A DNA stretch of 64,000 bases from Acholoe squamosa (Eukaryota > Annelida > Polychaeta > Phyllodocida > Polynoidae): positions 2,666,001 through 2,730,000 of the forward strand of contig OX439050.1 in NCBI GenBank assembly GCA_949317995.1, in the 5' to 3' direction. Below, piece after piece: positions 982 through 61,260 of the stretch; position 1 is the stretch's first letter, and the number at the start of each line of letters is the position of its first letter. The notes under the pieces were generated by a model. It was not told where the DNA came from. It saw only the letters and a list, made by a program, of their open reading frames with translations, and made no database searches. A program made the translations under genes and the position numbers.

Positions 982-1416
982 TTATTCAGCCGCATCGTCG
1001 TCTTCCTCCTCACCGCCCTCCTCCGGTTCCCCCTCTCCTGCAGCCTCCTCTGTCTCCGGCTGCTGCTGCTCCCAGGGCCGGCTGCAGGTTTTACAGGTAT
1101 CCCGTTGGCTTAAGTCCACAAATCTGTTCCGGGTTATAACCACAGTCTCGAACTCACCTCCTGGGAGCATCACTAGAGAGGTGGTCTGGCTCCCCTCCCC
1201 TAACTGGCGCACATCTGGCCCCTGCTCCTCCGGGGGCAGTAGTCTCTGTGCAAGTCGTCTCAGGGTCGCCGACCCTTGGTAATCCGATTGCCAGGGGTTA
1301 CGCGCCCCAGCCTCCTCAGCATGTCCTTCCTCCGTAGCTCCGCCGGACGTCCCCGGCTGTGGAGATGCACCAAGACCGTCCGGTGGGGGAGCTGTGGGTG
1401 TGGGGGTGGATGTCAC
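982..1416 (-). CDS. E1 accessory ORF, acidic C-terminal part
   Basis: 144 codons, open to within 26 nt of the 3' LTR. The product is Pro/Gly/Glu-rich, contains a CKTCSRP pair of cysteines near residue 110, and ends in a run of Glu/Asp. It overlaps the 151-codon ORF upstream in another frame. Composition changes abruptly where the frames cross, so I read the two as one original ORF split by a frameshift near 1416. No known domain is recognised. Acidic tails occur in chromatin-interacting and capsid proteins alike, so no function is assigned. Confidence 0.5.
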   Translation of the reverse strand: MTSTPTPTAPPPDGLGASPQPGTSGGATEEGHAEEAGARNPWQSDYQGSATLRRLAQRLLPPEEQGPDVRQLGEGSQTTSLVMLPGGEFETVVITRNRFVDLSQRDTCKTCSRPWEQQQPETEEAAGEGEPEEGGEEEDDDAAE

Positions 1417-1771
1417 CGGAGTCGGCGGGTACTGCAGAATCCCCCAATTCCTTCCCCTTCACCGACCCTGCCGAAGTATCCGCCGAAGGAGTTTTCACCA
1501 TAGCAAGGGCATCATCCAGATTAAGAGATCTGTTTAGTGTCACGTCTGTAGCCTCAGAGACATTCACCGAAGTGTCCAGTCCATACAATGTGAGTTCAGT
1601 GCCCTGGACCCACACTGGGCCCCCTTTTTCCCCACTTCCTCCGGCTTCCTCCTTAGGTCCCTCCCCCAACACCTCCTCCTCGTAAGACTTAAGTTCCTCC
1701 TCAAACCCCGGATCCACTAAATCATAGTCCACCTCCGCCCCCGGGAACAGTCTCTTGAGTCTTATCATCAT
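1316..1771 (-). CDS. E1 accessory ORF, N-terminal part
   Basis: 151 codons starting with two Met codons. Its ATG overlaps the stop of the long integrase-accessory ORF (1768-4716) in an ATGA arrangement, a layout associated with stop-and-restart translation in several viruses and retroelements; use of it here is inference. The first 40 residues are charged (MMIRLKRLF, then acidic), followed by a Ser/Thr/Val-rich stretch. The last ~35 codons look out of frame. The real continuation is probably the frame of 982-1416. Confidence 0.5.
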   Translation of the reverse strand: MMIRLKRLFPGAEVDYDLVDPGFEEELKSYEEEVLGEGPKEEAGGSGEKGGPVWVQGTELTLYGLDTSVNVSEATDVTLNRSLNLDDALAMVKTPSADTSAGSVKGKELGDSAVPADSGDIHPHTHSSPTGRSWCISTAGDVRRSYGGRTC

Positions 1772-25276: not shown

Positions 25277-28200
25277 GTAGGGACAACTCTTATAAATCAA
25301 AAGCAGGAAGTGACCCACCACAGGCAGCCCTGTCTCAGTAAACCATACCAGCCCACTACACTACCAAAGACAGTCATCCTTTTTTTTTTGCTTTTGTGAG
25401 CATTTGTTCAAATGATGCTGTGTGAGTGTTGTAAACCATCACCAATTCTTTGATTCAACATTTTTGGTCACTTTTGAATCCACATTGAAAATTGTTGTGC
25501 TGATTCAGTGTTTATATATCAACACTGACTTATAAACATTATAAAAATTGAAACAACATTATATCAATTATGAGTCAACATAAGCTAACATTGATTCAAA
25601 GTTAGTTTACCCTCTGGGGAGTACCAACAATGCCTCAAATCCTCACAATATACCAGTACTAATGGGATAGTGAGTGAGTGAGACCAAACACAGTAGTCAG
25701 TGGTGCTTCCGCATATGGCTGGATTAACATGCCCTTTTTATATAACAACAAAAACATAAAGTTTTAAATCGACTGTGGCAGTTGATACAAATAAGCATAG
25801 TAGGTGGTGTAGACCCCTGGTGGTAATGGACCAATGAGCAGGAAGAATCCTTTAACGAAATAAACGATTTATTTAGAAACACACCGGTATTGAAATATCC
25901 CACACCCTAGGGACATTTCATACTAGACACTGATGCTAGCAATAATGCTATAGGGGCGGCACTCTCTCAGGTCCAGAATGGAGTTGAAGTCCCATTAGCA
26001 TTCGCTAGTATCACGTTAAGCAAAACTCAGCGTAATTATTGTACCACTAAGAGGGAAATACTGGCGGTAGTGGTGTATATGAAGAAGTATAAGCATTTCC
26101 TTTGGGGGACTGACTTTACTTTGCATACCGACCATTCTTCTCTAAGGTGGCTTCTTAACTTTAAGGATGCCAAGGGGATGATTGGACGATGGTTAGCTCA
26201 CTTATCCGAATTTGGATTGGAGCATAAGCAGATTGAACACCGCCCGGGTGAAAAGCATATCAATGCGGATGCCTTATCGAAGAGGCCAATCCAAAAGTGC
26301 CAAAATGCCAATTGTGAGGACTGTGGGGCCCACAATGCTGTGGTTGCCGGGTTTGTATACAACTATACCTAACCCCAGATCCCATGGGAGGAGGCTGTAT
26401 GTAGCTATCTCGATTGGTCTCCAGAGACCATCAAGAAGTTTCAACAGTCCCACCATCTTGGAATACTTACGGAAAGGTATTAAGCTGGTAAGGCCAATGT
26501 TATCTCTGGAGGACGGAGAAATGAGGCTATTTGTTGCTCAATGGACCGAGCTAGAGATCTGAATTGCCACAGACAATAAGCTACTGCAAATCGTGGTTCC
26601 TACTTCAATGAGGAAGGACATCATGGCCACCAAACGAGTGGTCATTTCGGGAAGAAAAGATCTATAGAACGTCTGCAAAGACATTACAACTGGCCAGGGA
26701 TGAGGAGCAACCTTCTTTGGTGGATTGCAACTTGTCCCGACTGTTGTAAAAACAAAACCAGGACCCAGCCTCAAGAGCCGTTTGGTGTCAGATTTGCTCG
26801 GGTAGCAATCGACAGCATAAGTGGATTCAATACGACACCTAAGGAGAATACATGTATGATGGTGGTAACAGACTATAACACAAAGTATACTGGGGTGACC
26901 CCCTTCCAAATCATAAGGCCGCTACATGTGCTGAAGCATTTGTAAAAGGCTGGGTGCTACATTTGGGTGTGCTCCTTATGATGCACAGTGATCAAGGTAG
27001 GTCATAGTTATGGCAAGAAATGTGCCATTACTTAGCTATATGCAAGACCGGAACCAACCCATACAGGCCACAATCTGATGGCCAAGTGTAATAGTTTAAC
27101 AGAACTCTGATACAAGTTCTGAAGCCTTAAAGGAATAACCATCAGGAAATTGGGATGAACAGTGTGAGTTTGTAGTACACGCCTACAATAACACCGTCCC
27201 TACAGCCACCAATTGTACCCCTAACCTTTTGATCAGCGAGGACATAATAATGCCTGCCAATTTGGTGTATGGAGTAGTCAGAATTAATCCAGAAGCTCCT
27301 TGCAGTGTACTCTTTGTTGAATCACTTTGTGACAGATTTAAACAGGCATACAAAGTAAATGAACTACTTAAGAATGCTAAATGGCAGAAGGTGGGTTATG
27401 ACACGTTTTAATCTAGGGGACAAAGTGCTAAGGTATTACAAGTAACTCGAACGATTAAAGCTCGTGACACCTTGGGAGAGTCCATTTAAGATGATAAGCA
27501 CTGAGTCCATGGTGAAAATGAAGGATTGCTACAATGGTAGGAATGGTAAACCAATGTAGGTTGTGCAGGACCCGGCAAAGGCTGTGGGTAATGCCAGAAA
27601 AATTGGAATGCTGACCGAGGGCATCAGACATAGTCCCAGCCTAAAAGCTGCTGTTACCTAACCGAGTCTGCTTCAAGTGAATGACATATGTTGTAGTGGG
27701 TCAGGGTACCAGAAGTATATTCCCTCGGTGGAATATCCCATGAGAGGTGGTCGGTAGTTCGTCTGAGGGCATTGGTGATTTGATTTCGCGTCTTTTAGAC
27801 GTGGACCCGAACACCGGGAACCTTAAGCTCCTCAACGAGGGATGTAGCAGCTCAGCTCCAAACCAGGAGTCGGCTGAGAGGATGGACACAGATGACAAGT
27901 CGATTGACCTGTAGATGTCCATCTGCCGAGGATAAAGGCATCTTTTATATGCCAGAGATCACTCTCAGATGACCACCCGAAACCTACGGACGGGAATGAC
28001 TACCTGCAGCTAAATGGACGCTACCCGAACCACCCTTGGACCACCACTCAAAAGGGAGCTCCATCTACACATCTTCATCAGTGTACATCAAAACAGCAAT
28101 GTGGCTTGCCACCACACTTATGTCGTGGGATGGAGCCGCAGAAACCAGTCATTCCAGGTTCGCTGGAAGTCAAATTTTTATTGTACGGGTGATTCTACTA

Positions 28201-31200
28201 TCCTGGTAGGACAACTCTTTTATAATTGTTTGTATATATTATTATAAAACATAAAAGAAAACAATTTTTTTTTCAGGTTCATACGAAACTACAACAAGTT
28301 TCAATCACTCTCGGATATGTCTATAAAAATTGTATAAGGTTAATAATATATGTTAATAATTGTATAACTTACCCTAGGTAAAGTCTAGGGAGGTGGTGTA
28401 GGGGCCGGCATCGTTGTATATATACTAGTGCGGATCATCCGAGAGATGTGCTTGTGTGTTGCTTGTTCCTTCTGTAGGGGCCAGCTCTGGCTGTAAGTCC
28501 ATGGCGGTAGGCCATCTGCCCCGTTCCGTTTGCACCAGCCCTCAGGGGCTGGTCAGCCAGTATAAGCTGCCCCCTTGTGTATTATACCGATCCAGGTGTA
28601 GGTGGAAGGTAGGGAATGTCAGACGGGGAAGTAGCTCAGCGGTAGAGCTTCTGCCTGCAGGTTGGAGGGTCCCAGGTTCGACTCCCGGTTTCTCCAGGAC
28701 GTTTTCCGCCAACCTCTTCACTGGTGGAGAAACCGAGTTGGTCCTGCCCTGCAAGGGGGGACTACGAGAACTCGGTTGTTGAATCATCATTGAATTATGA
28801 ACAATATTTCAACATTGATATGTCAACTGTTGATTGGATGTGGAAATGGTGATGGTTGTCAACATTAAATAAAATAATTGAAAAAGCACTGAAGACTAGT
28901 TGATCAACACCATTAACACAATATCAACCGGTTGTCAATGTTGATGCAATGTTCTGTGCTAACTGGGAACTTCTTCTCTTGTCCTTTGGGGCGTTATACA
29001 CTAATGGTCAGGGCATGAGACATGCTGGGTCATTGGTGGCCACCCCCCAGTACACCAATACACCCCTATATATGTTATGTAATCACAACTACACTCACCT
29101 GGTCCCCCCAGATGAGGTCAACTCCCATTCAACTTGTACCTGTATAACCGCCTTGGTTATTTACCCACCAACCGACACCTTAAATATTTACATATGTGTT
29201 TACAGATATATCTCATTATTTCAATATCTTTTATAGTATTTTTTAACAATATATAATCTATATTTCTCACTGGTATATAGTAATCCCCATATTCAATCAT
29301 ATAATATCAAGTAATGTGTTATAATATAAATCAACATTGATAATTTGTGTACCAAAACACAACTTATACAGTATTACACATTTCTCTCCAAAATAAATAT
29401 ATACTTTATTATACAACTTCTTCTCTTGTGCTTTGGGGTGTTGTCCACTAATGAGTGCATGCTGGTGACTTGTGAGTAGGGTCATTGCATTTGCCACAAA
29501 CAGGTGCAAATGTGCAATTCTTTGAATCACAACCAAAGCTGTTGTATCTATTACATTTTATGACTCCCCCATCTTCATTAAGCCTTAAACCCTGCTGATT
29601 TCGGGGTTGGCCATTGGCGCCTGATACTTTTCCTTTTGCCTTATTTTTACCTTCATTTTTCTTCTTCATACCTTCTGAATCGAAATGAAGTTTGGTAAGG
29701 TCGTCGTTACCAAAACCAAACTCATTAATGCAGTTCCCATAGACACATTCCTCCCTCACACTAGCATCATATTCCGCGTATGGTTCTTTTTCATAGAGAT
29801 CACTAGACGCTTTAAAGGAAATGAAACCCGAGTGGCAGAGAAATTTCATGATTTCAGGGACACTACTAAAGGTGCCCTCATCCATACCATTACATGCCCA
29901 TGTGATAGAAGTATACATGAGTTGGGGATATGAAACAGATTTAGGCTCTACCTTTAGTGAAATGTTTTAAATCAAACTGTTTTTTTTTTACTTTTAGTGA
30001 GTCTATCAGCCGAATATCTCTACCTTCTCTGGGTGGGTTGAATAAAAGGGTGCTTGTGATAGGTCCCCTTTCTGGCGATGAATCTTGTGATGAAGGGGGA
30101 GACATCCTCGGCAGAGGAGGCATCCTCCTGCCAAGGCAGTTTTAAATCGATTGTGGCAGTTGATACAATGAGCATAGCAGGTGGTGTAGACCCCTGGTGG
30201 TAATATAATCAACTAGACTCTCCCAGCCTGAGCACAGCCAGGTGAGAGGGGTACGCACATAGTCATGTTTATTCCAAGATTTCTGGCTTACTGGGTGCTT
30301 TTTGGTGGCTATTCCCATCAACATATCTGTCGATATTGCACACCCTGTAGGCTGTAACATCAATTTTGTAAGGCGTGCGGTTATCCATGGATAACCTGTG
30401 CCCAGTGCGGTTTATCCATGGATAACCACACACCTCTCATGTCCTTCCATGTCATATGTTACATGTTAAAACCCATGAAATTTTCAAGGCCAGGGCAGGG
30501 CTCGAACCTACAGTCTCAGATCCCTAATCCAACTCCCTATGCGCCACAGGGACTGACGAGAAACGCTCGGTTCGAACCACGTCTGGATATGATACAAAGG
30601 CCGGGCAGGCGATGACTGCGGGCTGACCGCTACCATAACCACGGGACACATTCAAACATAGCCAAGCTGACAGGGTAGGAGACGTCTTGGCCTAGCAGTT
30701 AGCGTGTTGCGCTTAGCCGTGAGAGGTCCGCGCAACGAGCCCCGGCCCGGGCGCATCTTTTTTCGCAGTATGCGCTGTCGCTGTCTGCTGCCGGTCGAGG
30801 AGGTGTATTCTACACAAACATAACAGTGAGACGCGTCTTTTTTCGCCGTGTGCGCTGTCGCTGTCCGCTGCCGGGTGACGAGGTGTATTCTACACAAACA
30901 TAACAGCGAGACGCATTGAAATCTGTCCGAGCCGAGACGGCCGCTGTCGCTGTCTGCTGCCGGGCGACGAGGTGTATGTACTGATCGTGTACACCCAATG
31001 GCTGGCATTGAGTCCCGGGGAGGGGGAATAATTTTTGTTTTCAACTTGAATTTATTGATCTTCTATTGATTATTTATTGGTTTCGTGGAATAAAATAAGT
31101 AGTCAATGGATAATTCATGACTCGTGTGTGTTAGCAAAGGCTAATAACACTCGGCCTATGGCCTTGTGTCATTATCCTTCACTAACACACACTCGTCATG

Positions 31201-33483: not shown

Positions 33484-33689
33484 GTTTATACCACCATTTC
33501 CTCCATTTTGTATCAATTTCTTACCTTTAAAAGCATTTTAAGTCCCGAAATAGACAAATTTCTTCCCTCGATTCGACAGAAATAAAACGCCATCTTGTTT
33601 TCCACTTTGACTTAATTGGACCGGAAGTCGCCAAGCTGACCTAGTTGCAAGGTGTGGGGGAGCATATATTATTTTTTACGTGTATAATG

Positions 33690-33752
33690 CGTTTCCCGCC
33701 TGTAATTTCTAATGCTATAGCAATAGTACAATGAGACAAAAGGTAGGAAAAC
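33690..33752 (+). repeat. 63-bp segment duplicated into the E2 LTR, source copy
   Basis: CGTTTCCCGCCTGTAATTTC to AGGTAGGAAAAC. An identical or near-identical copy is at 33890-33952 inside the neighbouring LTR. Confidence 0.92.
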
Positions 33753-33782
33753 AGAACAATTTTATTTAAATAGAAATAAATA

Positions 33783-34203
33783 TGTAATGGTTCGTATCGA
33801 CTTATATGTTGGGTGGCTCGTTGGCTCGCTTATCACTAAAGATACCAACACAACACGAGTGATTCGGGTTGGGCAAAGCCCCTGATATCCGTTTCCCGCC
33901 TGTAATTTCTAATGCTATAGCAATAGTACAATGAGACAAAAGGTAGGAAAACCTCTCGGGTAGGACTTTATTCACTTCTCAGCTGCTTATAGTTAAACGT
34001 CTTGACTGGACTACGTCCAGTCCCCTTCTGCGGCTCGTCCGGCTTCTTAGTAGAAGCTGGACGCGAGGCATGGTGCTGCCCCCTCTTGTACCAGCCGGGT
34101 ATCGCAAAGCGACACCTAGTTGGCATAGAAGGAATGAGCACCACACGAACACGTCTCTCGGATGAACCGCACTAATATATATACAACGATGCCAGCCCCT
34201 ACA
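33783..34203 (-). repeat. E2 3' LTR
   Basis: 421 bp against 348 bp for the 5' LTR. The difference is mainly the 63-bp insertion (33890-33952) and a small insertion (about 34005-34020) that makes GACTGGAC-TAC-GTCCAGTC. Carries AATAAA (minus, 33967-33972) and a TATATATA box. Confidence 0.92.
33890..33952 (+). repeat. 63-bp copy inserted in the E2 3' LTR
   Basis: Copy of flanking host DNA 33690-33752, in the same orientation, 200 bp away and on the other side of the LTR border. Absent from the 5' LTR. Confidence 0.92.
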
Positions 34204-34969: not shown

Positions 34970-35578
34970 TTAAAGATCCTCGGGATCAGTGTCCATCTTC
35001 TCAGCCGACTCCGGGTGGCCAGCCGGACCCGAGCTGCTGCAACTGCTCATAGAGAGCAGCACTGGGGTTTCGCTGAGAGACTCGCTACGCAAGCTCAGCG
35101 CGCCCATCCCCTCGGACGGACTGTCGACTGCCTCGGGCTGGGGTGGTGCATCCGGAGCGAGGGAAAGGGACGACGCAGAGCCGTCCCACTCGTCCAGGTG
35201 CTTCCCGAAGCGGAGGAAGAACTTGAGGTCGGCCTCCTTGTACTTGTGGATATACCCGGCGTTCTCAGCACGGTGGAACTCCTTAAGCTTTTCAGCTTCC
35301 AACTGCTGGCGCTAGCAGGATTGGATTGCCTCCTCGACATTCTTCCTCTCCTGTTCCCGGATCTTCTCTTCCTCCCTCTTCTGGACCTCAAAGACCAGGT
35401 TGAAGGTGGCTTCAGTCATGCTCCGCCAATAGTCGACTGACTTTTGGCGATGCGATGCCTGCCATTCCGCCATCAGGTCGTTCTGGATTACCGCCGTCTG
35501 AACGTCGCGGTGATCAACGAACGTGATCGGATCCTGAAGACCTGACAGCGTACTCGCAATAAGTCCCATAACAGGCAC
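34970..35578 (-). CDS. E2 accessory ORF, coiled-coil C-terminal protein
   Basis: One frame of 202 codons with a single in-frame stop near 35310. The first half has a Glu/Arg/Lys-rich helix (VQKREEEKIREQERKN); the second half is Ser/Pro-rich and ends ESAEKMDTDPEDL. The end is conserved in the relic at 27.9 kb. It follows the zinc-finger ORF after 21 nt in another frame. No known family recognised. Expression route and role unknown. Confidence 0.6.
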
Positions 35579-35598
35579 CCGAGGGGCCGCTGGTGGGA

Positions 35599-36720
35599 CT
35601 ATAGCCGGTGGGGCGCGGCGGCCTCTACAGTGACAGACGAAGCGCCTGCTGGAGGGACCGAGGGACCCTCAACTGTTGCACCTCCCCGGCCTCGGCCGCC
35701 ACCCGGGGGAGCTCGGGTGGAGTCCATGCCACCACGGCCTCTACCCCGGGGCTTGGACCGGCCCAAGGGGGTTAGGACCTGAGATTCGGGTCCCGCTGGT
35801 CCCATTGCAGGGAACTTTGCCGCGTACTCACTATACGTGGGCCGCTTGCCGGATGACCCTTCACCGGCCCACCATGCTCCGTGTCCGGATGGGGCACCAA
35901 AAAAGGTGCTCCAGTCATCCGGACTGCCAGTGGCTTCACTCTGGGGGTGCTCTGTTGCTGGTGTTGGGGCTGGAGTGGCCGCCTGGCTAACCACCCTATG
36001 GGTCTGGTTGCCAGGCATATCCAGAGCCGAGACTTGTTGTCCCGACTGGCGATGATCAGCTGGGTTGGCTGGTCTGGGCTGATCCTTGTTACCCGAAAGG
36101 CTTACGGATCGGTCTGCGCGGGTCCTCTTGGAAGCACCGGTAGCCGTAGCTGAGCCTCCATTAGGTCCCTTCGAGCTAGCCTTGCCCTTCTCCCACTTAT
36201 CGTCCCCTCGCCACTTCTTCACCTTCAGGTGTACCTCGTTGGGCATCCCGAACTTGGTAGGCGAGAAGTTAATGGCGAAGTAGGCCAAGAGGTTGCCACT
36301 CCTCCATGAACAGAATCCAGTCTCGAATGCCTGTTCCTTAACATCCTTCACGCTCAACGAAGCCCAGTTAGCCAGGAGCTCGTTGAAGCACTTTACAGCC
36401 CGTTTCCGAGTTTTCTCCAGGTCGGTACCATGGGCTTTCTGCAGATGCAGAGCCATGTCCCGACGCCGGTTGGTCGAAAACAAGCCGTCACAAAGCTTAC
36501 CCAGACGGTGTCAGGGTACGCACTGAAGTAGGGGCTTGTGGTGCATATGGTGCTCCACGATATGGCGAGCGAAGCGAGGCTTCGTTTCAAACATCTTCTC
36601 TCCTGTGAGGGCTAGCTGGCACGACTCGAATGGGCACTTGCGGCGGTTGCCGCTTGGTCCCCATTGTGTCATAGCCCATTGAACTTTCGTCCGGGCCTCG
36701 TAGTTATATATCGACCCCAA
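35599..36720 (-). CDS. E2 accessory ORF with paired C2H2 fingers
   Basis: One frame broken by one TGA at about 36510. Finger 1 is in the first part: CPFESC then X18-H-X3-H. Finger 2 straddles the stop: its second Cys and H-X4-H (ALHLQKAH, C-X14-H-X4-H) lie just after. A basic, structured stretch follows (AVKCFNELLANWASL, FINFSPTKF-like region), then Gly/Arg/Pro-rich low complexity ending RGRGRGG repeats. Finger spacing resembles that of E1. It occupies the env position. Nucleic-acid binding is the likely property; the role is unknown. Confidence 0.7.
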
Positions 36721-36740
36721 TTTGGATTTGAGCTAGTCAA

Positions 36741-38333
36741 TCAAATGAGGTAGAATTTTCCTACTGGCATATCCGAGGGGCCTGACTTCATCCACTCCTC
36801 GTTATCGCTATCACCATCTTTATTGACGGCGCCCGGGACTGTGTCGTAAGCACAGTCCGCGAAGCAGCGGGGAGTCCGTTCCTGGAACCCCTCGGCTGCA
36901 TTCTTCCACATCCATTTCTGATTGTCGTCTTTGGGGACGTCCGTGGTCATTTCTTCCCATGTCATCACAGACTCCAAATCAGATTTGGCTGACTCAGGCA
37001 GCTCTGGGTTGCTTGCGCTTACCTCACTGTCCGTGTAGATGCCCTCCCCTTTACAGCCGGCTCGGCTGGTGGTGGTCGAAGCCTTGGTAGAGGTTTTGGC
37101 GCTCATCCCGCTGGTGCTAGCAGAGGATGCTGCAGTAACCGAAGTGGCTACCGTGGTTGTTGGGGCGCTGGAGACGGGCGTCTTCGGGTCGCCCTTACCC
37201 CTCGGCTTGGTGGGGGGTGCGGGCTCCGCCGGATATGCTTTCGCTCCATTCTTCTTCTTGCGGCGCACGACCTTGGGTGGCTGCGCTGGCACTTCGGGAC
37301 TAGAATCCGACTGAGGTGGATCCTTGTCCCTTGAACGAGGGCTCCTCCTGCCACTGACAGGGGAGTCAGAGCCGGAGGCGGCCTTCGCTTTACTTTGGGC
37401 CAGTTGTTTCCGGTGGGCCCGACGGGTAGCGGTTAGCTCCTTCTGCTGTTTGGCCAGCTCGGCTCGCTTGGCCTTAACAGCAGCCTGTTGCCGTGAGATG
37501 TCCTCTTCCGAGATCTCACCGGCCGCCTCCGGTATGTTGGCGCCCGGTTCCTGCTCGGTCGTGGACCTCTCGATGGCGATCCTGATATCCTCCACCTCCA
37601 GGTCACTCTCAGTGAGAGGACCCTTTGGTGCTGGCTTACGGCTCAATCGCTTGACCCGTCCGGTTTCCACCGACGACTGTGTGATGGTGGAGTCTGTATC
37701 CATGTCGGATTCAGACTCTCTTAGCTGAGCGGCCTTCCGGGTAATGCCTTCGGAAAGCAGCACAGCTCGGGCCAAGCTCTCGTTGACCGCCATCTCCTCT
37801 GCCAACCGTTTATAGTTGCGGAGCCAGGAAACAGGCAGGTTTTCTGCTAACTCGTCTGTGCACGAGTCCATCACCAGAGTCTTGAAGTCGTCTGGCACGG
37901 TGTCGGCCTGGCCGGGTGTTTCCGCCAGGGGACCGCATCCGAACATAGAAGGATGCATGGGGATGTAGGTCCCCCAAGAGGTGTACACGACACCGGTCTC
38001 CACGTCCACGTCGGCTATTCGCTCGGTGCGTGTTCTGTATCCTGGAGGATACAGCGGAATGTCCAGGACATCAAGGTTATCACCCGAAGCCGTTGCTGTA
38101 GACGTTGGCTCTGGGCGCGGTGGAGGGGGAGGAGGCATCCTCTCTCTGTCGGTGACCTCGGCCATCCCAGAGAGCGTGAGGGCTGCTTCCTCGACTTTGG
38201 ATCCCCTTGCAGGGACCGCCGTTGAGGAGTCCATGTTCTCCTCAACCCGACACGAGACCGTCGGGTCCTCGCCTTCCTCCAACTGAACGTTGGCGGTCTG
38301 ACGTGCGGCGTCAATCGTCCCCTGTGCCATCAC
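36741..38333 (-). CDS. E2 accessory ORF, 530 residues, no known domain
   Basis: Fully open. Residues ~65-75 are a Pro run; ~90-150 look structured (IPLYPPGYRTRT, VVYTSWGTYIPMHPSMFG); ~165-215 are helical with LPVSWLRNYKRLAEEMAV. A Lys/Ala/Gln coiled-coil lies at ~285-320 (AAVKAKRAELAKQQKEL), followed by Ser/Thr/Pro-rich and Lys-rich patches, and an acidic, Trp-containing end. It precedes the zinc-finger ORF and is in another frame. Remaining open for 530 codons in an otherwise decayed copy suggests real coding in the source element. It is missing from the relic. Confidence 0.65.
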   Translation of the reverse strand: MMAQGTIDAARQTANVQLEEGEDPTVSCRVEENMDSSTAVPARGSKVEEAALTLSGMAEVTDRERMPPPPPPRPEPTSTATASGDNLDVLDIPLYPPGYRTRTERIADVDVETGVVYTSWGTYIPMHPSMFGCGPLAETPGQADTVPDDFKTLVMDSCTDELAENLPVSWLRNYKRLAEEMAVNESLARAVLLSEGITRKAAQLRESESDMDTDSTITQSSVETGRVKRLSRKPAPKGPLTESDLEVEDIRIAIERSTTEQEPGANIPEAAGEISEEDISRQQAAVKAKRAELAKQQKELTATRRAHRKQLAQSKAKAASGSDSPVSGRRSPRSRDKDPPQSDSSPEVPAQPPKVVRRKKKNGAKAYPAEPAPPTKPRGKGDPKTPVSSAPTTTVATSVTAASSASTSGMSAKTSTKASTTTSRAGCKGEGIYTDSEVSASNPELPESAKSDLESVMTWEEMTTDVPKDDNQKWMWKNAAEGFQERTPRCFADCAYDTVPGAVNKDGDSDNEEWMKSGPSDMPVGKFYLI

Positions 38334-38794: not shown

Positions 38795-39232
38795 CTACAG
38801 CGAACAACACGCAGCAGCTCGTTGTGTACTGAGTTCGGTTACAGCAGACCTCAACCGGGGACTGTGTCTAACGCCTTCGGTTAGCATTTTATTCTTCCCG
38901 GCTTTACGTACGGCCTTCTCCGGGTCCCGTTTAGCCACGGCGAGACCTTTCCCATACGTATTGCCTTCACTCAGCGAGACATTTTTCCGTTTCTTACGAT
39001 TAGGTCGTTTCCTGGCCTTCGTCTTCTTTTTAACTACTCCCCCAGCTTCCGGCGCTTTCCTCGGCCGTCCTCTAGGGCGTTTCCCAGGTACCACCGCGTT
39101 GGGCTTGCTAGGCGCAGGCTCAGGTGGATGATACCCGAACTCCCTTTCCGCCTCTTCGCGTCCCTTCCAGGGCCGAAGTTTTCCGACATTTGTCTTCCAT
39201 TTCCTACCAGTTAGGCAGTCCTCCATCATCAC
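38795..39232 (-). CDS. pol: E2 integrase C-terminal tail with AT-hook
   Basis: 145 codons, strongly basic. A canonical AT-hook core is seen in GKRPRGRPRKAPEAGG (residues ~50-65), followed by KKKTKARKRPNRKKRKN and, near the end, EGVRHSPRLRSAV. The last segment is conserved in the relic at ~27.6 kb. It begins in another frame just after the integrase core, so it is most likely the integrase C-terminal extension. AT-hooks bind the minor groove of AT-rich DNA; a targeting role is inference. Confidence 0.7.
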   Translation of the reverse strand: MMMEDCLTGRKWKTNVGKLRPWKGREEAEREFGYHPPEPAPSKPNAVVPGKRPRGRPRKAPEAGGVVKKKTKARKRPNRKKRKNVSLSEGNTYGKGLAVAKRDPEKAVRKAGKNKMLTEGVRHSPRLRSAVTELSTQRAAACCSL

Positions 39233-39387
39233 TCGGAGATGATGCGAATAATTTTAAATGGACCTTCCCAAGGCGTTACGAGCTTTAACCGTTCCAGCGG
39301 CTCGTAGTACCTTAGTACTTTGTCCCCAACATTAAAATGAATTCTTTTGGCATTGGTGTCATGACCCACCTTCTGCCATTTCGCACT

Positions 39388-40371
39388 CTACAGCAGTTCT
39401 TTCCGAACGGCCTCGTATGCCTGTTTGAATCTATCCCTTAACGACTCTACAAACAATACGCTGCAGGGCGCCTCTGGGTCTATCCCAACCACTCCATACA
39501 CTAAGTCGGCGGGCATTATGATGTCCTCGCCGAACACTAGCATGTTTGGAGTACAATTAGTAGATGAATGGACAGTGTTGTTGTAAGCGTGTACTACAAA
39601 CTCACACTGTTCATCCCAGTCGTCCTGGTGGGTATTAACCAGGGTTTTTAGCACTTGTATCAAGGTTCTATTGAACCGTTCTACCTGTCCATCTGACTGT
39701 GGTCGGTATGGGTTGGTTCAGGTTTTGCAGATGGCTAGGTAATGGCACATTTCCTGCCATAGCTCTGACTCGAACTCTCTCCCTTGGTCACTGTGCATCA
39801 TAAGGGGGACACCCAAATGAAACACCCAGCCTTTTACAAACGCCTCAGCGCATGTGGCGGCTTTGTGATTGGGAAGAGGAAACACCCGAGTGTACTTTGT
39901 ATAATAGTCGGTTACGACCATCATGCAAGTATTATCTCGGGGCGTCATTTTAATTCCGCTGATGATGTCTATCGCTACTCGAGCGAACCTGACACCAAAC
40001 AATTCCTGGGATAAGGGTTGCTTTCCCAGGCCGGGTCCCAGCTTGTTTTTACAACAATCCGGGCAAGTGGCGATCCACCGAAGTAGGTGACCTCTCATTC
40101 TGGGCCAGTAGTAACGTCTTTATAGACGCTCTATCTTACCGAAATGACCACTAGTTTGGTGGCCATGGCAATAATACATGATATCCCTCCTCATCGGGGT
40201 GGGAATCACTATTTGTAACAGCCTACCGTTGGTAGAAGTAGTCTTCCACCTGCACAGTATGCCGTCTCGGATCTCTAGCTCGGTCCATTGAGCTAGCAAT
40301 CGCCTCGTTTCCTTATCTTCTAGGGATAACAGCGGCCTTGCCGGTTTAATACCTGTCCGTAGGTATTCCAT
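39388..40371 (-). CDS. pol: E2 integrase
   Basis: One frame interrupted by a TAA (about 40100) and a TGA (about 39717). Zinc-binding region: CHGHQTSGHFG and WIATCPDCCKNK. Core: VRFARVAIDIISG (first Asp), MHSDQGREFE (second Asp), and after the TGA, SDGQVERFN (Glu). DDE residues are therefore all encoded, but the protein cannot be made in one piece. In the relic the codon at the TGA position encodes Gly. Confidence 0.9.
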
Positions 40372-42176
40372 TATGCGCGCAGTGGTGGGATCCGACTGTT
40401 GGAACTTCTTGATGGTCTCCGGGGACCAACTGAGATAGCTACATACAGCCTCCTCCCAGGGGATGCGGGGGTGGTATAATTAAATACCAACCCAGCTACC
40501 ACAGCATTGTGGGCCCCGCAGTCTTCACAAGTGGCATTCTGGCACTTTCGGACGGGTCGCCTCAACAAGGCATCCGCATTGATATGTTTAGAACCGGGCC
40601 GGTGCTCTATTTGTTTGTGCTCCAATCCAAACTCATATAGATGAGCTAACCATCGTCCAATCATCCCCTCGGCATCCTTAAAGTTAAGGAGCCACCTTAG
40701 AGATGAATGGTCGGTTCGTAAAGTAAAGTCAGTTCCCCAAAGGAAATGCTTAAACTTCTTTGTATACACCACTACCACGAGGAGTTCTCGTTTAGTGGTA
40801 CAATAATTACGCTGGGTCTTGCTTAACGTGTTGCTAGCGAATGCTATTGGGACCTCGACTCCATCCTGGACCTGAGAGAGAGCCGCCCCGATTGCATCAT
40901 TGCTCGCATCTGTGTCTAATATGAAATGTCCCTCGGGAGTAGGATATTTCAATACGGGTGTATTTCTAAACAAATCCTTTATTTTATTAAAAGATTCTTC
41001 TTGCTCGCTGGTCCATGGGAATGGGTCCCGTGCCCTACCCGGGGTCCAGTGAGCTAAGCACTGCATTGGAAAACTGACACGAGAGTAATTCGGTATGAAA
41101 TCACGGTAGTAGGAACAAAATCCTAAAAATGATCTCACCTCCTTAGCACTCGTGGGTCGTTCCCAATTCTCTACAGCTTCTAAATTCTCCGGATCCGCAC
41201 TCACTCCGTTAGGGGTGATGATCCTTCCCAGATATGTAACTGTTTTCTTAAACAGATTACATTTCTTGGGTTTAAGTTTTAGACCGTTGGATAGTATCCG
41301 GTCGAGTACCAATTGCAGATTTGCATGGCATTCCTTAAACGACTTGCCGAACACGACAACGTTGTCCAAGTAGACCAAGCATTTCTTCCACAAAAGGTCA
41401 CTCAACAAGGATTCCATCATGGCCTCGAATGTAGTAGGGGCGTTACACAATCCGAAGGGTAAGACATTATACTTGAATAGCCCCATATGACTAGAGAACG
41501 CGGTTTTCTCTTTGTCATCGGGGTGCATCGGTATCTGCCAATACCCGGATTGCAGATCCAAGGTACAGAACCATTGGTTCCCACCCAAGCTATCTAAAGT
41601 CTCGTCTATCCTAGGCAGAGGATACGAGTTCTTCTTTGTTATACCGTTCAATTTTCGGTAATCTACACAAAAGCGGATTGTACCGTCTTTCTTAGTGGTC
41701 ATACAAACAGGGCTGGACCAGGGACTGGAGCTCGGCACGATCACCCCTAGGTCCAACTGCTTTTGTATTTCCTGTTCACAAATTAACTTCTTCTTAAGAG
41801 GAAGTCTGCGATACGGGATTTTAAAAGGTTTCTCGTCGCCCAAATCTATAGTATGCAACAACTTATCGGATCTGCCTACCGGTCCTCCTTCCCTACCGAA
41901 AGCACTCTCGTACCTCCGTAGGAGTTTTGCTAGGCATTCCTTATCCTCCGTATTCTGTAAATCTGATTGTTCAACCAGTTCCTGAAATTCTTCATCCAAA
42001 GGATGCTTACTAACAGGGTTTAGTGGTTTATTGAACCTGGCCTCGGCGACGTGTTCTACCGAACTCATCTCTCCCACACTGTCGCCTCGTTTCAAGTAAA
42101 CCACCAAACCACTTCGGTTAGTTATGGGTGATACAGACCATGCTGCGTTAGCCACCAATGTGTCCACTGAATCCAA
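40371..42176 (-). CDS. pol: E2 reverse transcriptase and RNase H, with YLDN active site
   Basis: 601 codons. RT blocks: KKDGTIRFCVDYRKLN, LDLQSGYWQIPM, FGLCNAPTTFEAMM, then VYLDNVVVF, where the family has YLDD. Loss of the second catalytic Asp should abolish polymerase activity. Thumb: VRSFLGFCSYYRDF. RNase H: LDTDASNDAIGAALSQ, KRELLVVVVY and LRTDHSSLRWLLNF. A frameshift near 40465 puts the last ~30 codons out of frame with the integrase. Confidence 0.93.
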   Translation of the reverse strand: MDSVDTLVANAAWSVSPITNRSGLVVYLKRGDSVGEMSSVEHVAEARFNKPLNPVSKHPLDEEFQELVEQSDLQNTEDKECLAKLLRRYESAFGREGGPVGRSDKLLHTIDLGDEKPFKIPYRRLPLKKKLICEQEIQKQLDLGVIVPSSSPWSSPVCMTTKKDGTIRFCVDYRKLNGITKKNSYPLPRIDETLDSLGGNQWFCTLDLQSGYWQIPMHPDDKEKTAFSSHMGLFKYNVLPFGLCNAPTTFEAMMESLLSDLLWKKCLVYLDNVVVFGKSFKECHANLQLVLDRILSNGLKLKPKKCNLFKKTVTYLGRIITPNGVSADPENLEAVENWERPTSAKEVRSFLGFCSYYRDFIPNYSRVSFPMQCLAHWTPGRARDPFPWTSEQEESFNKIKDLFRNTPVLKYPTPEGHFILDTDASNDAIGAALSQVQDGVEVPIAFASNTLSKTQRNYCTTKRELLVVVVYTKKFKHFLWGTDFTLRTDHSSLRWLLNFKDAEGMIGRWLAHLYEFGLEHKQIEHRPGSKHINADALLRRPVRKCQNATCEDCGAHNAVVAGLVFNYTTPASPGRRLYVAISVGPRRPSRSSNSRIPPLRA

Positions 42177-43042
42177 CCCGATACTTGATAAATATATACT
42201 GTGTCGGGTTCAAAGACTCCAGTTTCATTCCTTTGGGCCATTGATCCGCCACAAAGGACGTCGCAAGTGGTCTTCACCGTGTGTATCACTGATGCAACCG
42301 ATGACACCTGTCTCAATACGCACTGGACATGCAAGCCATACTGGTTCCGTATACTTATCATACCATCCCTGGGATCCAAGACGGCCCCATATAAGCTTGC
42401 AAAATCCAATCCGAGGATTCCGTCATCACTAACCTCTGCTATAGTCGGCGAAAGAACAAATTCTTTGCCTCCTATGCGGATAGGCATAAACATCCTACCA
42501 AAAGTACACATACTGCTTCCGTCGGCCGTGCAAGCATTTACCCCGGTTTTGAGGTTCTCATGACTGCTGGCCACCGAGTCGAAGAATCTTTTGGACACAC
42601 AGGAGTGGCTGGCTCCAGTATCCACCAAGAATTCTCCTACCCGGCCTTCCACAGATATGGGTACATACCACCGTCTCCCCCCTAAAGGAGAGGGGTTGCT
42701 GGTAAACTGGTGAAAGTCTCCCGAATCACCAAGATTCAATCTGAGTCCTCTCAAAAACTCCAGACACGGATGACTTGGGGGAAGGTGTGTCCCACACACT
42801 CGAATCAACTCCTTGATCCATCCTCCCTCTCCCCCAGTGTGGCCACTCGCCTCCATATGTTCGCCACCGTACACGTAAGCACTAGGGTCCCTGGCCCCGG
42901 CCGTAGTGCAGGGGTGCGCACCCACAGCCACCCGGCATCCAGGTGAATTTGATTCGAAATCTTCCACCGGATTACCCGCGGTAGCATTTTGGCATTCGTT
43001 CCATCCTGGGGTGATACCCAATGCCGTGGATACAACCCCCAC
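42122..43042 (-). CDS. pol: E2 aspartic protease region
   Basis: 306 codons. Active site EFLVDTGASHSCVS and supporting DGILGLDFAS. The start overlaps the zinc-knuckle ORF by one base; the end overlaps RT in another frame. A ~100-residue Gly-rich stretch precedes the catalytic domain. Confidence 0.9.
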   Translation of the reverse strand: MGVVSTALGITPGWNECQNATAGNPVEDFESNSPGCRVAVGAHPCTTAGARDPSAYVYGGEHMEASGHTGGEGGWIKELIRVCGTHLPPSHPCLEFLRGLRLNLGDSGDFHQFTSNPSPLGGRRWYVPISVEGRVGEFLVDTGASHSCVSKRFFDSVASSHENLKTGVNACTADGSSMCTFGRMFMPIRIGGKEFVLSPTIAEVSDDGILGLDFASLYGAVLDPRDGMISIRNQYGLHVQCVLRQVSSVASVIHTVKTTCDVLCGGSMAQRNETGVFEPDTVYIYQVSGWIQWTHWWLTQHGLYHP

Positions 43043-43272
43043 TAGTTTCCCACATCAGTGGAATCCATAGCGTTCTGTTCCCCTTCGCCGTTATCTTCGG
43101 CTTCATAGAAGGCAGCAATTACCGGCTTAGCAGCGGTACATTCAGACGAATAGTGTCCCATGCGTTGACACCTGAAACACTTAACCGTACGGCGATCTAC
43201 TCTGGGTCTCTGCCGGCTGGCTTGGAGGGCATCTGTAATTTTCTTACACATATCCTCCATAAGTTTGGTCAT
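43042..43272 (-). CDS. gag: E2 Gag nucleocapsid with CCHC knuckle
   Basis: 76 codons with VKCFRCQRMGHYSSEC, a C-X2-C-X4-H-X4-C knuckle. It is the nucleocapsid end of Gag, in a different frame from the capsid ORF upstream. Confidence 0.88.
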   Translation of the reverse strand: MTKLMEDMCKKITDALQASRQRPRVDRRTVKCFRCQRMGHYSSECTAAKPVIAAFYEAEDNGEGEQNAMDSTDVGN

Positions 43273-43342
43273 GTCCGGAGGCTGACCCTTCGCTTTATCA
43301 GCGTTGTCAGAGGGCTTAGTTGCCTTCCCACCAACTTTCGGG

Positions 43343-44008
43343 TCACTCCTGACCTCGGTTCAGAATCCCTCGATTTACTAAACGCCTTCCTCGGAATGTA
43401 CTTCCTACCTGTAGTATTTTTCCTAAGCTGCACGAGCAAAAGGTGCCGTCCTCTTGCTCGATGTCAATCAGTTCAAAATCATCCGGGGTATTATCTACCT
43501 CGGATCTCTGAACTACCGATGCCAGTGGAGCCGAACCCGTGGTATTCGGGATGTCTCCGGCTATCATGGTTCGCTTCTTCACGGCCATATCTATACTATT
43601 AAATATGCCGTGCAATGTTATGCCTTCCTTCCAGGCATCTCTCGCAGCAATTTGCTCGTCTCGGTCTCTCAGACCCTTGACAAATTGAGTGATCAATATA
43701 CCATCCATATACCAGTCCTGGTTTTTTGTACCAGGTCTGGCCTTACTCAACAGGGCATGCAGTTCCATACCGTATGCTCTGAAAGCTTCGTTTGGCTTCT
43801 GTGTACGTTTCTTAAAGCGGACCATCGGATCTTCCTTGACCATGTTACACAATAGTCCGCTAGCAGATTCAACTAACTGCTCAAAACTTCCTACGAGACC
43901 ATACCAGGTCCGCCATTGCTCCACTGCCATGCGGCCCGGCCCTCCTTTCAAGCATCTTACTAGATGTGGCTTGACCTCGTATGGGGTCCAACCATTGCAG
44001 TTCATCAC
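43343..44008 (-). CDS. gag: E2 Gag capsid
   Basis: 221 codons with the retrotransposon gag pattern (NGWTPYEVKPHLVRCLKG, ARAY-like FRAYGMELHALL, QFVKGLRD). Upstream the same frame continues past a TAG at about 44037 to around 44080. The last ~40 codons become basic and may be out of frame. Confidence 0.82.
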   Translation of the reverse strand: MMNCNGWTPYEVKPHLVRCLKGGPGRMAVEQWRTWYGLVGSFEQLVESASGLLCNMVKEDPMVRFKKRTQKPNEAFRAYGMELHALLSKARPGTKNQDWYMDGILITQFVKGLRDRDEQIAARDAWKEGITLHGIFNSIDMAVKKRTMIAGDIPNTTGSAPLASVVQRSEVDNTPDDFELIDIEQEDGTFCSCSLGKILQVGSTFRGRRLVNRGILNRGQE

Positions 44009-44080
44009 ATCGATGAAATCTTCAAACCATTCTTTCTATGGCCGGGTACCGTCGTATTCCTTAGGAATCACGGCTACCCT

Positions 44081-44536
44081 TCAGGCTGAATTGTGATCAT
44101 ACATCAATCGAGTGCATTGTTGTTTACTCCATTCAATCGCCTTGGTTTCATTCAAGGTTCGATTGCTTCCCATTCCACCAAAGCTTGTATTGCTTGGTGG
44201 TGGCGGTGGTGGTGGTTGGTTATACGTCCACTGTGTACCACTGCAGTTTGTATAGCCACCACCCCCTTGGTTAGGGCCGGTACCCGAGGCACAATCCCTA
44301 CCTGCGTTGGGGCCGTTACCCGAAGTACCATCCCCACCCTGAGCACCAGTGTGGTTAGTGCCACCCTGGTGACCGCCATCAGATGGCTGGCCCGCATGGT
44401 TTGGGTGATTACCACCGTTAGGTGGAGTTTGTTGGTTGCTGGTGTTACCAGCTCCCAATCCGACATCTTCTGTCTGTTCCACGTGTATGTGGAATCCACT
44501 AGTTTCAGCACTTGTGTCGGAAGTATCCCTAGGCAC
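44081..44536 (-). CDS. gag: E2 Gag, low-complexity middle part
   Basis: 151 codons, rich in Gly, Asn, Gln and His (GGNHPNHAGQPSDGG), then a Pro run, then ETKAIEWSKQQC. It is probably a linker of Gag; separated from neighbours by a stop and a frame change. Confidence 0.6.
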   Translation of the reverse strand: MPRDTSDTSAETSGFHIHVEQTEDVGLGAGNTSNQQTPPNGGNHPNHAGQPSDGGHQGGTNHTGAQGGDGTSGNGPNAGRDCASGTGPNQGGGGYTNCSGTQWTYNQPPPPPPPSNTSFGGMGSNRTLNETKAIEWSKQQCTRLMYDHNSA

Positions 44537-44559
44537 GAAGTCCGGGACTAAGTTATGGA

Positions 44560-45402
44560 CTATCTATTGGCTTCCTTGAGCTCCAGCTCAGCCAACTTTT
44601 TATCCTTCTCTTTCTCGTCTTTCTCCTTTCGCTCCAATCGGTGAGCTACAGAGGATAAACGATATTTGAGGTCGGATTCCTTAAGAATCGCCTCCTGTTC
44701 AACAGAACGGAGCTTACCGATCCGAGCTTTTGTCTCTTCCTCTATCTTCGCTTGGGCTGCCATGAATTGTTCATGCTGCCTCTTAGCCTGTAGCTCTACC
44801 TGCTCTTTGGCTTTCAAATAGGCCGAAGTAGTTTTATACCCGGGACCCATCCGACGTCCGTATATTGACTTGCGGCTGCCTCCAGGGTTAAACATGGAGT
44901 CCGACAAGCCTTCATCTAAAGAAAGGCCTAGGGAGTGCCTTTCCGAGCTTCTCGGCAAGGTCTTCCGAGGCACAGTCTTCGGGGTTGCTGTATGAACCTT
45001 CGGGTCCTTTACAGCCTTGCCGTCGTCGCTATCATGATCAGACGACATCATTAGTGGGGCTACCCCGGTTGCCCCCTCTGGTACCGCGCCTGTAGGGGTC
45101 GCGGTACGCTGTATAGGGCTCTCGGCTATTGGTGTACCCAAGGTGCTAGCCGAGCCTGCCGGAATAATAGGTCCCAGCTGGCGTCTGCTAGTTATAACTT
45201 GGGACCAATCGCTCAAGTTCAAGGTTGGGGGTCTCAGTACCCCCCTAAACAATCCTGTATCCGGGGCTACCATTTGAGGTGTGCCCGGATACAACTTAAC
45301 AATGCCATCTCCATTTCTGGTGGCACCGTCTGTTAGACCGGGTGTCGAGAAGACAGTCTGGACACCTTCGGGTTGAACATATGTTGTTGACCCGGTTTCC
45401 AT
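44560..45402 (-). CDS. gag: E2 Gag N-terminal coiled-coil region
   Basis: 280 codons from the first Met after the primer site. The first ~175 residues are Ser/Thr/Pro-rich; residues ~195-280 form a long charged coiled coil (KRQHEQFMAAQAKIEEETKA, RLERKEKDEKEKDKKLAEL). Long N-terminal coiled coils are not standard for gypsy Gag. It may assist assembly, by inference. Confidence 0.65.
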   Translation of the reverse strand: METGSTTYVQPEGVQTVFSTPGLTDGATRNGDGIVKLYPGTPQMVAPDTGLFRGVLRPPTLNLSDWSQVITSRRQLGPIIPAGSASTLGTPIAESPIQRTATPTGAVPEGATGVAPLMMSSDHDSDDGKAVKDPKVHTATPKTVPRKTLPRSSERHSLGLSLDEGLSDSMFNPGGSRKSIYGRRMGPGYKTTSAYLKAKEQVELQAKRQHEQFMAAQAKIEEETKARIGKLRSVEQEAILKESDLKYRLSSVAHRLERKEKDEKEKDKKLAELELKEANR

Positions 45403-45527
45403 TCTAACAACAGATGCTGGGATGTGAAGCCATTCTCTTCGAATCCCTCTAGCCCAGGGCTGGAGGGACCCGCATCGGGTTTCCCGAGGCTTTCAGCCAA
45501 TGTGGCCGCGCACCACCCCCGAACCAA

Positions 45528-45543
45528 CTGGTCACGGCACCAG
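45528..45543 (-). other. E2 primer-binding site
   Basis: Minus strand CTGGTGCCGTGACCAG directly inside the 5' LTR. The same 16 bases follow the E3 LTR at 63702. E1's site is different. Confidence 0.8.
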
Positions 45544-45891
45544 TGTAATGGTTCGTATGGACTTATATGTTGGGTGGCTCGTTGGCTCGCTTATCACTAA
45601 AGATACCAACACAACACGAGTGATTCAGGGTTGGGCAAAGCCCCGGATACCCCTACCTCTCGGGTAGGACTTTATTCACTTCTCAGCTGCTTATAGTTAA
45701 ACGTCTTGACTGGACCCCTTCTGCGGCTCGTCCGGCTTCTTAGTAGAAGCTGGATGCGATGTGTTGCCCCCTCTTGTACCAGCCGGGTATTGCAAAGCGA
45801 CACCTAGTTGGCATAGAAGGAACGAGCACCACACGAACACGTCTCTCGGATGAACCGCACTAATATATATACAATGATGCCGGCCCCTACA
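45544..45891 (-). repeat. E2 5' LTR
   Basis: 348 bp, TGTAGGGGCC to CCATTACA on the minus strand. TATATATA box near 45870 and AATAAA at 45671-45676 (minus). Matches 33783-34203 apart from the insertions there. Confidence 0.93.
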
Positions 45892-60015: not shown

Positions 60016-60820
60016 TTGTAGTTAGACATTAACTAGGATTTAGAATATAAGGGTTATTTGGAACACAAATTTAAGGGGGCTGATTGGTATTTAATGAAAC
60101 ATTTAACTCTGTTGAGATGTTTGGTCAGACTGCAGTTAGCATTGGTCTGTCAATAGGTACAATGTTTGTCTATGATGGATCCGTGGGAAGAAACATGTGA
60201 GGAATGCAATAATTTCTTATGTTAAACAAACACAAGAAACGAATCATGTGATTGTTATGATCTTCTGTCAAGGCTTTAAAGTGTTTGAGGACATGTTTCC
60301 GAGGCCTGAAAGTACAGGTCTTTGCCAAATGTTAGAACTGTAAACATAACATGCTGTATACTGACTCCATACGTAGTCAGTGTGATTCAAGTACATTTCT
60401 ATTGTATTTTACGATTGTTTGGAATTTGTTCTAAAACACTCATATAATCTAGGCAATGTTTGTACTAAACAGAAATACTTGAAATAGTGTAAACTAATTG
60501 ACTCTCATTAATCCAAATCTCTCAGTTATCTCAAAGTATCTATCTTAATTCATATCTGCCTTTTCATAACTTTTTCATCTTAGTTATGTTTACTCAGATT
60601 TAGTTAGTAGTACATTCAGAAACACTCAGAACCTTCCTCCATTTTTAGATAATTTATAAAACATTAACTTGGAGTAGTTTTTAGACGAAACCTCTAAACA
60701 CAAATTTCTGGCAAGGACAGAAAGCCGCCTTGTGTTTCATAGAGTCTGTGATAGTAAACAACCCACAATGTTATTTAACGTATCCCTTTGCATTCATGAA
60801 CGGTGACTTAGAAGTTTTAC
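60016..60820. other. Intergenic, nothing recognised
   Basis: AT-rich DNA before the minisatellite. Confidence 0.4.
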
Positions 60821-61260
60821 CAAACAACATTTATATATAATGCCATAATAAGGGTTTTACCAAACACCATTTATATATCATGCCATATTAAGGGTTTTAT
60901 CAAACAACATTTATATAATTATAATGCCATAATAAGGGTTTTACCAAACACCATTTATATATAATGCCATATTAAGGATTTTACCAAACACCATTTATAT
61001 ATAATGCCATAATAAGGGTTTCACCAAACACCATTTATATATGATGCCATAATAAGGGTTTTACCAAACAACATCTACATATCATGCCATATTAAGGGTT
61101 TTACCAAACACCAATTATATATCATGCCATAATAAGGGTTTTACCAAACACCATTTATATATCATGCAATAATAATGGTTTTACCAAACACCATTTATAT
61201 ATATAATGCCATATTAAGGGTTTCACCAAACACCATTTATATGTAATGCCATAATAAGGT
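60821..61260 (+). repeat. 40-bp minisatellite, eleven copies
   Basis: CAAACACCATTTATATATAA, TGCCATAATAAGGGTTTTAC, repeated eleven times head to tail, 39-44 bp each, with 5-15 percent differences. Each unit contains TTATATATA and TGCCATAATAAGGG. No unique spacers between units. Confidence 0.95.

Follow-up and report, generated by a model that had tools for sequence, protein, structure and literature searches.

Three related families of Ty3/gypsy-type retrotransposons in Acholoe squamosa, here called the E2 clade, carry a third gene after integrase whose product holds a pair of C2H2-like fingers, and in the family of element E2 the finger region is under strong purifying selection. The original prediction, made from one E2 copy and a second element (E1) in the same stretch of DNA, was that two distinct gypsy lineages might share a conserved accessory gene. 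This stands for the E2 clade (three families with reverse transcriptases 79-90% identical), whereas for E1 kinship is suggested by what follows. Taken as a whole, the best explanation seems to be that the third gene of the E2 clade encodes a nuclear, nucleic-acid-binding accessory protein to which the E1 pair is probably related, a composite reading that we consider about evenly balanced.

The finger pair in a broken element

The window (i.e. the whole stretch of 64,000 nucleotides that was analysed) contains E2 on the minus strand, an LTR retrotransposon of the Ty3/gypsy type, as the Pfam domains of protease, reverse transcriptase (RT), RNase H and integrase stand in this order between its LTRs. 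Its 5' LTR (45544..45891, minus strand, found by self-comparison) has TGTA...TACA ends and is followed by the primer-binding site TGGTGCCGTGACC (45530..45542, minus strand), which we take to be tRNA-His-like. Next come, all on the minus strand, gag (assigned by position) and the protease region in broken frames (42122..45492, with the protease domain at 42122-43054), RT with RNase H (40371..42209; Pfam RVT_1 1.3e-33, RT_RNaseH 6.1e-31), for which the best-scoring solved structure is that of Ty3 RT, and integrase (38795..40119, with H2C2 and rve within 39718-40119). The tail of the integrase (38795-39253) is strongly basic and carries KRPRGRPRK, presumably an AT-hook-like motif, and the Pfam scan of this tail gave no match. 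A degraded copy of the accessory gene (34970..38330, minus strand), delimited by tblastn, reading frames and the long-frame copies elsewhere, precedes the 3' LTR (33783..34203, minus strand), which is interrupted by a 66-bp copy of adjoining outside sequence. Within 33687-33952, the 66-bp sequence adjoining the 3' LTR has a 98% repeat inside the LTR (33887-33952) that is absent from the 5' LTR. No Pfam env family was listed for the E2 pieces of the window or for the accessory protein of either element.

E1 is likewise a minus-strand LTR retrotransposon (LTR matches 614-918/8550-8854), with Pfam domains in gypsy order between the LTRs in a scan without RNase H and H2C2. Its gag frame (7262-7942) holds a CCHC knuckle and matches SCAN weakly (E 3e-4, under the curated cut-off). 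That LTR, primer-binding site and pol differ between the two elements, as had been claimed, is confirmed by primer-binding sites of TGGTGCCGTGACC in E2 and TGGTGACAGAGGTG in E1 and by RT regions that are 41% identical over 310 aa. Troyka elements are described as having LTR ends CG...CG and a 3-bp target duplication, in the part of the source consulted (PMC12440569); membership of E2 or E1 in this group was rejected, since the E2 LTR ends are TGTA...TACA and the E1 5' LTR ends likewise. Elsewhere in the window there is a tandem array with a 40-bp unit (60749-61324), its copies 61-91% alike over a 130-nt frame, and three related blocks (10998-11250, 13413-13613 and 31758-32010) have, by eye, the appearance of exons of a fibronectin-type host gene family.

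The predicted finger motifs are present in E2 on the minus strand, with CPFESC-X18-H-X3-H at 36636-36547 and a second Cys/His unit ending in C-X14-H-X4-H at 36522-36430. The spacing needed some correction: in columns compared across families, the second conserved His of finger 1 lies one residue later, giving C-X4-C-X18-H-X4-H for finger 1 (36547..36636, minus strand), and the distance to the second finger, first put at about 11 residues, is a linker of 8 residues in E1, E2 and the two further families, L051 and L053. Finger 2 of E2 (36430..36522, minus strand) reads C-X9-C-X14-H-X4-H, the long opening C-X9/10-C being common to the E2 clade, while E1 has C-X5-C. The claim that an accessory ORF of E2 carries this pair holds for the motifs and fails for the window copy, in which an in-frame TGA (36513-36511) breaks finger 2 and is followed downstream by more stops and a frame change. 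In fact, the listed ORF (35599-36483) starts inside finger 2 and holds only the later part of it, and a tblastn comparison with the accessory protein of copy L041 aligns three separate pieces between 38330 and 35165. The window copy thus has no single frame that encodes the pair, and the argument must therefore rest on its relatives.

In canonical C2H2 fingers (Pfam zf-C2H2), twelve residues separate Cys from His. The E2-clade fingers resemble canonical tandem fingers in having two Cys and two His per unit, a linker of near-canonical length and a P before finger 2, whereas E2-clade and E1 fingers depart from them in having X17-20 and X14 instead of X12, in the C-X9/10-C of finger 2 in the E2 clade, and in giving no match to a Pfam zinc-finger model, for either accessory protein, at E 10 (the HMMER filters dropping most matches above 0.1). 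Nor did the E2 pieces of the window match such a model at 0.1. A protein database search with E2 or E1 gave no match, viral contigs gave no relative, and solved structures gave weak matches only to the finger-region profiles A1, A2 and A3. AlphaFold2 models of the two finger regions had a mean pLDDT of 36.8 and 34.6, which is too low for use. In a six-frame scan with a pattern fitting both elements, E1 and E2 were the sole matches in the window, with 0 in 500 six-frame shuffles; the pattern was built from E1 and E2 themselves, so that this result shows rarity and not kinship.

Conservation of the gene within the E2 clade

The genome of the same species (1.48 Gb) was searched with a 73-aa piece holding E2 finger 1, for which 150 of 7,450 first-look candidates were scored. 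All 150 listed matches are 89-100% identical to the query; counted by eye, 143 have no stop within the match (7 do), and 17 lie in an open frame of more than 1,000 aa. Eight of these 17 long-frame copies were fetched, and their accessory frames measure 1,115-1,214 aa from stop to stop. A MAQxT start is found in the long frame of six of the eight (L044 is without the motif, L045 has it in another frame), and six frames, all except those of L041 and L047, end in the tail MDTDPEDL. Upstream of MAQG, the integrase frame ends at a distance of 503-519 nt in L041, L045 and L048, 684 nt in L042 and 615 nt in L046, while for L043 no integrase frame of at least 90 aa was listed there. Because the integrase frame ends before MAQG, the accessory protein is a separate ORF in the E2 family.

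Among the eight copies (28 pairs, NG86), dN/dS is 0.23 for the whole accessory protein; it falls to 0.09 round the fingers (residues 470-740) and rises to 0.31 in residues 741-915. Leaving out L045, whose frame starts shifted, gives 0.20, 0.08 and 0.32, respectively (21 pairs). These copies were chosen for long frames, which favours a low dN/dS, but the contrast between regions is not explained thereby. For the ligands, 21 of 28 E2 loci passed a filter of finger-1 pattern and open flanks, and 20 of them were aligned; L018, in which a deletion takes out finger 2, was left out. Since copies were picked with the finger-1 pattern, the conservation of finger-1 ligands is partly by construction, whereas the finger-2 ligands were not so fixed. 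In finger 2, the first Cys and the first His are kept in all 20 aligned loci, the second Cys is lost in L017 and L045, and L010 lacks the last His.

Further elements were sought in four stretches of 10 kb each (40 kb in total), selected because they lie next to E2 copies. Two of them (L050 and L052) hold E2-family elements, and the other two (L051 and L053) hold two further gypsy families, with RTs that, over 110 shared columns, are 79% identical to that of E2 and 90% identical between the two (a stop in the L053 RT piece being masked for the comparison). A protease-RT-integrase frame was seen by eye in L051. Both families have the finger pair after integrase, the accessory gene of L053 being split over several frames. 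Although a loose Cys/His pattern served to find the pairs, the homology is independent of that pattern: the accessory protein of L051 matches that of E2 with 37% identity over 198 aa round the fingers (E 3e-34), a second match covers the C-terminal domain (E 4e-8), and the N-terminus shows a weak likeness (E 0.02-0.03). With RTs at 79% and homologous finger regions, it follows that the finger module is inherited within the E2 clade.

The same comparison of E2 with L051 gives 34-37% identity round the fingers of the accessory protein versus 79% in RT; the accessory protein thus diverges far faster than RT, and yet the fingers persist. In alignment A3, made up of L051, L053 and four E2 copies with all ligands (i.e. 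without ligand losses), the invariant columns comprise the eight ligands and two Cys upstream of them, and also the H-H-x-P linker and some other residues, with finger 1 as C-X4-C-X18..20-H-X4-H. An own-genome search with the L051 region, in which 142 of 8,947 candidates were scored, gave 145 matches, some of them pieces of one copy. Two diverged copies from this search, L055 and L056, which were fetched by place and not by pattern, have kept finger 2, with one finger-1 His missing in L055.

Close relatives without fingers had been named as evidence against a conserved module, and such a relative of E2 does exist in the window. This element, E3 (25826..28473, plus strand), was recognised by sequence matches to E2 and is degraded, with RT, integrase and LTR pieces; its DNA is 84% identical to E2 in RT and 76% in integrase, and the 3' untranslated region and LTR also match. 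However, about 95 bp past the end of its integrase (27626-27658, plus strand), positions 27753-27905 (plus strand) match the last 51 residues of the E2-family accessory protein, with a score of 74 compared to 49 for the highest of 2,000 shuffles. Since this C-terminal tail is retained, primitive absence of the gene was rejected, and the rest of the gene was lost from E3 by internal deletion. Just downstream of E3 lies a tRNA-Cys (gca) gene call (28625-28696), the 3' end of which matches neither the E2 nor the E1 primer-binding site.

Relation of the E1 pair to the E2-clade module

The finger pair of E1 (2383..2565, minus strand) reads C-X2-C-X17-H-X3-H, a linker of 8, and C-X5-C-X14-H-X4-H. 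It lies in an accessory extension after integrase (982..3963, minus strand) which is RS-rich, then has the fingers and a charged C-terminus, and which is in three pieces in the window copy. Other copies read without interruption from the integrase core into the extension (1,448 aa for both L023 and L028), and in 7 of 48 matches the frame is 2,428-2,429 aa long without a stop in the match; two more of 2,428 aa have a TGA within the match (by eye). The long frames were inspected only from the integrase core onward. Of 20 fetched loci, 19 passed the finger-1 filter and are 95-100% identical to the first. For 15 copies chosen for open frames (105 pairs, with 91 for the C-terminus), dN/dS is lowest in integrase (0.16) and highest in the RS-rich linker (0.52), with 0.33 for the finger region, 0.23 for the part that follows and 0.30 for the C-terminus, so that the fingers, being above the two later parts, are not the most constrained part of the E1 accessory extension.

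In RT, E1 is 48-52% identical to E2, L051 and L053, and the corresponding values for Ty3 are 43-50% (110 shared columns); the E2 piece by itself is 48% identical to E1 and 50% to yeast Ty3. The RT of E2 is thus no closer to E1 than to Ty3, which means that great age would have to be assumed for a module that E1 and E2 both inherited from their last common ancestor, and transfer is equally possible. The RT tree consists of five sequences, too few to date the gain of the module.

For E1 and E2 taken alone, the comparison favours the alternative that both took up C2H2-type pairs independently, through capture or convergence, with descent only within the E2 clade. BLASTP of the two accessory proteins gave no significant match at the fingers, and one match with an E of 2e-4 was rejected because it consists of charged, coiled-coil-like sequence and is gone after masking of low complexity, upon which no BLASTP match is left and the remainder of the two proteins is unalignable. 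A comparison by hhalign gave P = 0.17, the score of the module was reached by 59-67 of 3000 shuffles with Cys and His fixed, and that of longer regions by 144 of 2000. Independent uptake would also fit the RT values just given, the continuation of the integrase frame into the E1 module where the E2 module has a frame of its own, and the fact that a profile of the E1 finger region scores the solved C2H2 protein KLF5 (16.2 bits, best of 177,635 sequences) higher than L051 (10.3 bits).

The two further families point the other way. The scores of E1 with L051 and with L053 were reached by only 0-2 of 3000 Cys/His-fixed shuffles, the accessory proteins of E1 and L051, compared by BLASTP with masking, match in a single place, the finger pair (27% identity over 74 aa, E 0.023), and hhalign, run with A3 and the E1 alignment, gives P = 1e-4 and a probability of 58%. 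As any two C2H2 units resemble each other, these values were calibrated with decoys. The score of an 85-aa E1 stretch against A3 was reached by 1 of 400 decoys with Cys and His fixed, by 11 of 400 when F, L, V and I were held in place as well, and by 1 of 400 canonical C2H2 decoys; against an alignment of six sequences (L051, L053, L055, L056 and two E2 copies) the counts were 2, 14 and 2 of 800, respectively. The profile-profile comparison that had been proposed has a divided outcome, being not significant for E1 versus E2 alone and suggestive of kinship once L051 and L053 are included, albeit less clearly so against the decoys with fixed hydrophobic residues, which speak for independent uptake. 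What independent uptake leaves unaccounted for, besides the few shuffles and canonical decoys that reach the scores, is the common order, the long first finger (17-20), the 14/4 second finger and the 8-residue linker.

On this evidence from sequence comparison, the E1 pair is probably a distant relative of the E2-clade module, by descent or by transfer, and independent uptake seems somewhat doubtful. Tentatively, it is also possible that gypsy lineages which split long ago (RT about 50%) share an undescribed finger-pair system, retained or moved between them, as a free gene in one and joined to the C-terminal end of the pol frame in the other. Such a system would serve animal gypsy elements as a general module for handling RNA or DNA.

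Related systems and possible functions

Accessory genes have been described in other LTR retrotransposons, and the following comparisons hold for the parts of the cited texts that were consulted. CERV, encoded by Cer1 of C. elegans, is a nuclear accessory protein with a Cys-rich loop that is needed for RNA export (PMC10309623). Likened to it by description, the E2 protein is also an extra LTR-retrotransposon protein with a Cys-rich candidate finger, but that of CERV is of the C4 type and its reading frame partly shares gag exons (PMC10309623). In LTR retrotransposons of bdelloid rotifers, ORF3s are common to different retroelement lineages (PMC5408684), and the E2 gene is likewise a third ORF shared between lineages, although the bdelloid ORF3s belong to other types (GDSL esterase, DEDDy exonuclease, coiled-coil, transmembrane or env). 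Neither zinc nor C2H2 occurs as a word in the ORF3 text consulted; the DEDDy ORFs of Vesta2 and Vesta5 do have a Zn-type Cys-His-Cys motif (PMC5408684). Additional ORFs of plant LTR retrotransposons are extra proteins as well, but of plants (PMC7264820), and the m6A demethylase domain of orchid Ty3/gypsy elements is an extra domain of another kind, again in a plant (PMC9289625).

In a word search of four papers about LTR elements from molluscs, annelids and clams (PMC8220671, PMC6238403, PMC8905726, PMC8556966), the words zinc finger were absent from the text consulted, and no C2H2 pair after integrase in animal gypsy elements is described among the matches listed by an open-access word search, covering titles and the starts of abstracts and missing synonyms. 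Third ORFs shared across retroelement lineages are already known, and the finger-pair gene after integrase is a new variety thereof. Extra genes of LTR retrotransposons show what an element needs beyond gag and pol, and a finger protein under selection, in families with at least 100 matches each, is a candidate that can be tested for a part in RNA export, packaging, targeting or anti-silencing. Its absence from the Pfam scan suggests that profile-based annotation misses such genes.

In the proposed mechanism, the third gene lies between integrase and the 3' LTR of the Ty3/gypsy-type elements of the E2 clade and encodes a protein of about 1,000-1,200 aa, predicted to have disordered stretches, a central domain in which a conserved Cys pair precedes two C2H2-like fingers of non-canonical form, and a C-terminal domain that is charged and looks coiled-coil-like by eye. 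The separate frame in E2 suggests that this protein would be translated from a spliced or separate message. It may then act in the nucleus and bind nucleic acid, most likely the RNA of the element itself, and such binding would aid the export or packaging of that RNA, by analogy with Cer1 CERV. The fingers, together with RG motifs in the E2 protein and RS dipeptides in that of E1, fit a nuclear nucleic-acid-binding protein; neither RG motifs nor four basic residues in a row occur in the L051 protein. Among the possible functions we infer that RNA handling ranks first, integration targeting second and anti-silencing third.

DNA binding is the commonest job of tandem C2H2 fingers, and it is conceivable that the protein tethers the pre-integration complex to chromatin, as chromodomains do in chromoviruses. 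Targeting of integration by the fingers would agree with the frame that the E1 fingers share with integrase and with the very basic integrase tail of E2 and its presumed AT-hook-like motif, but it is unlikely, considering that the finger protein of E2 has a separate frame, more than 500 nt past the end of integrase in L041, L045 and L048, and that the tail was empty in the Pfam scan. Even less probable is a role in countering host silencing (e.g. small-RNA or KRAB-like pathways) through host factors or the DNA of the element: a rapidly diverging accessory protein is to be expected in an arms race, but the finger region is under strong purifying selection within the E2 family, and no host partner is known. 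Finally, the view of the region as decayed filler whose Cys/His spacing arose by chance holds only for the present coding ability of the broken window copy, with its stop in finger 2, and is rejected as extremely improbable for the E2 family, given a finger-region dN/dS of 0.08-0.09, homologues in two other families, and 150 and 145 matches elsewhere in the genome.
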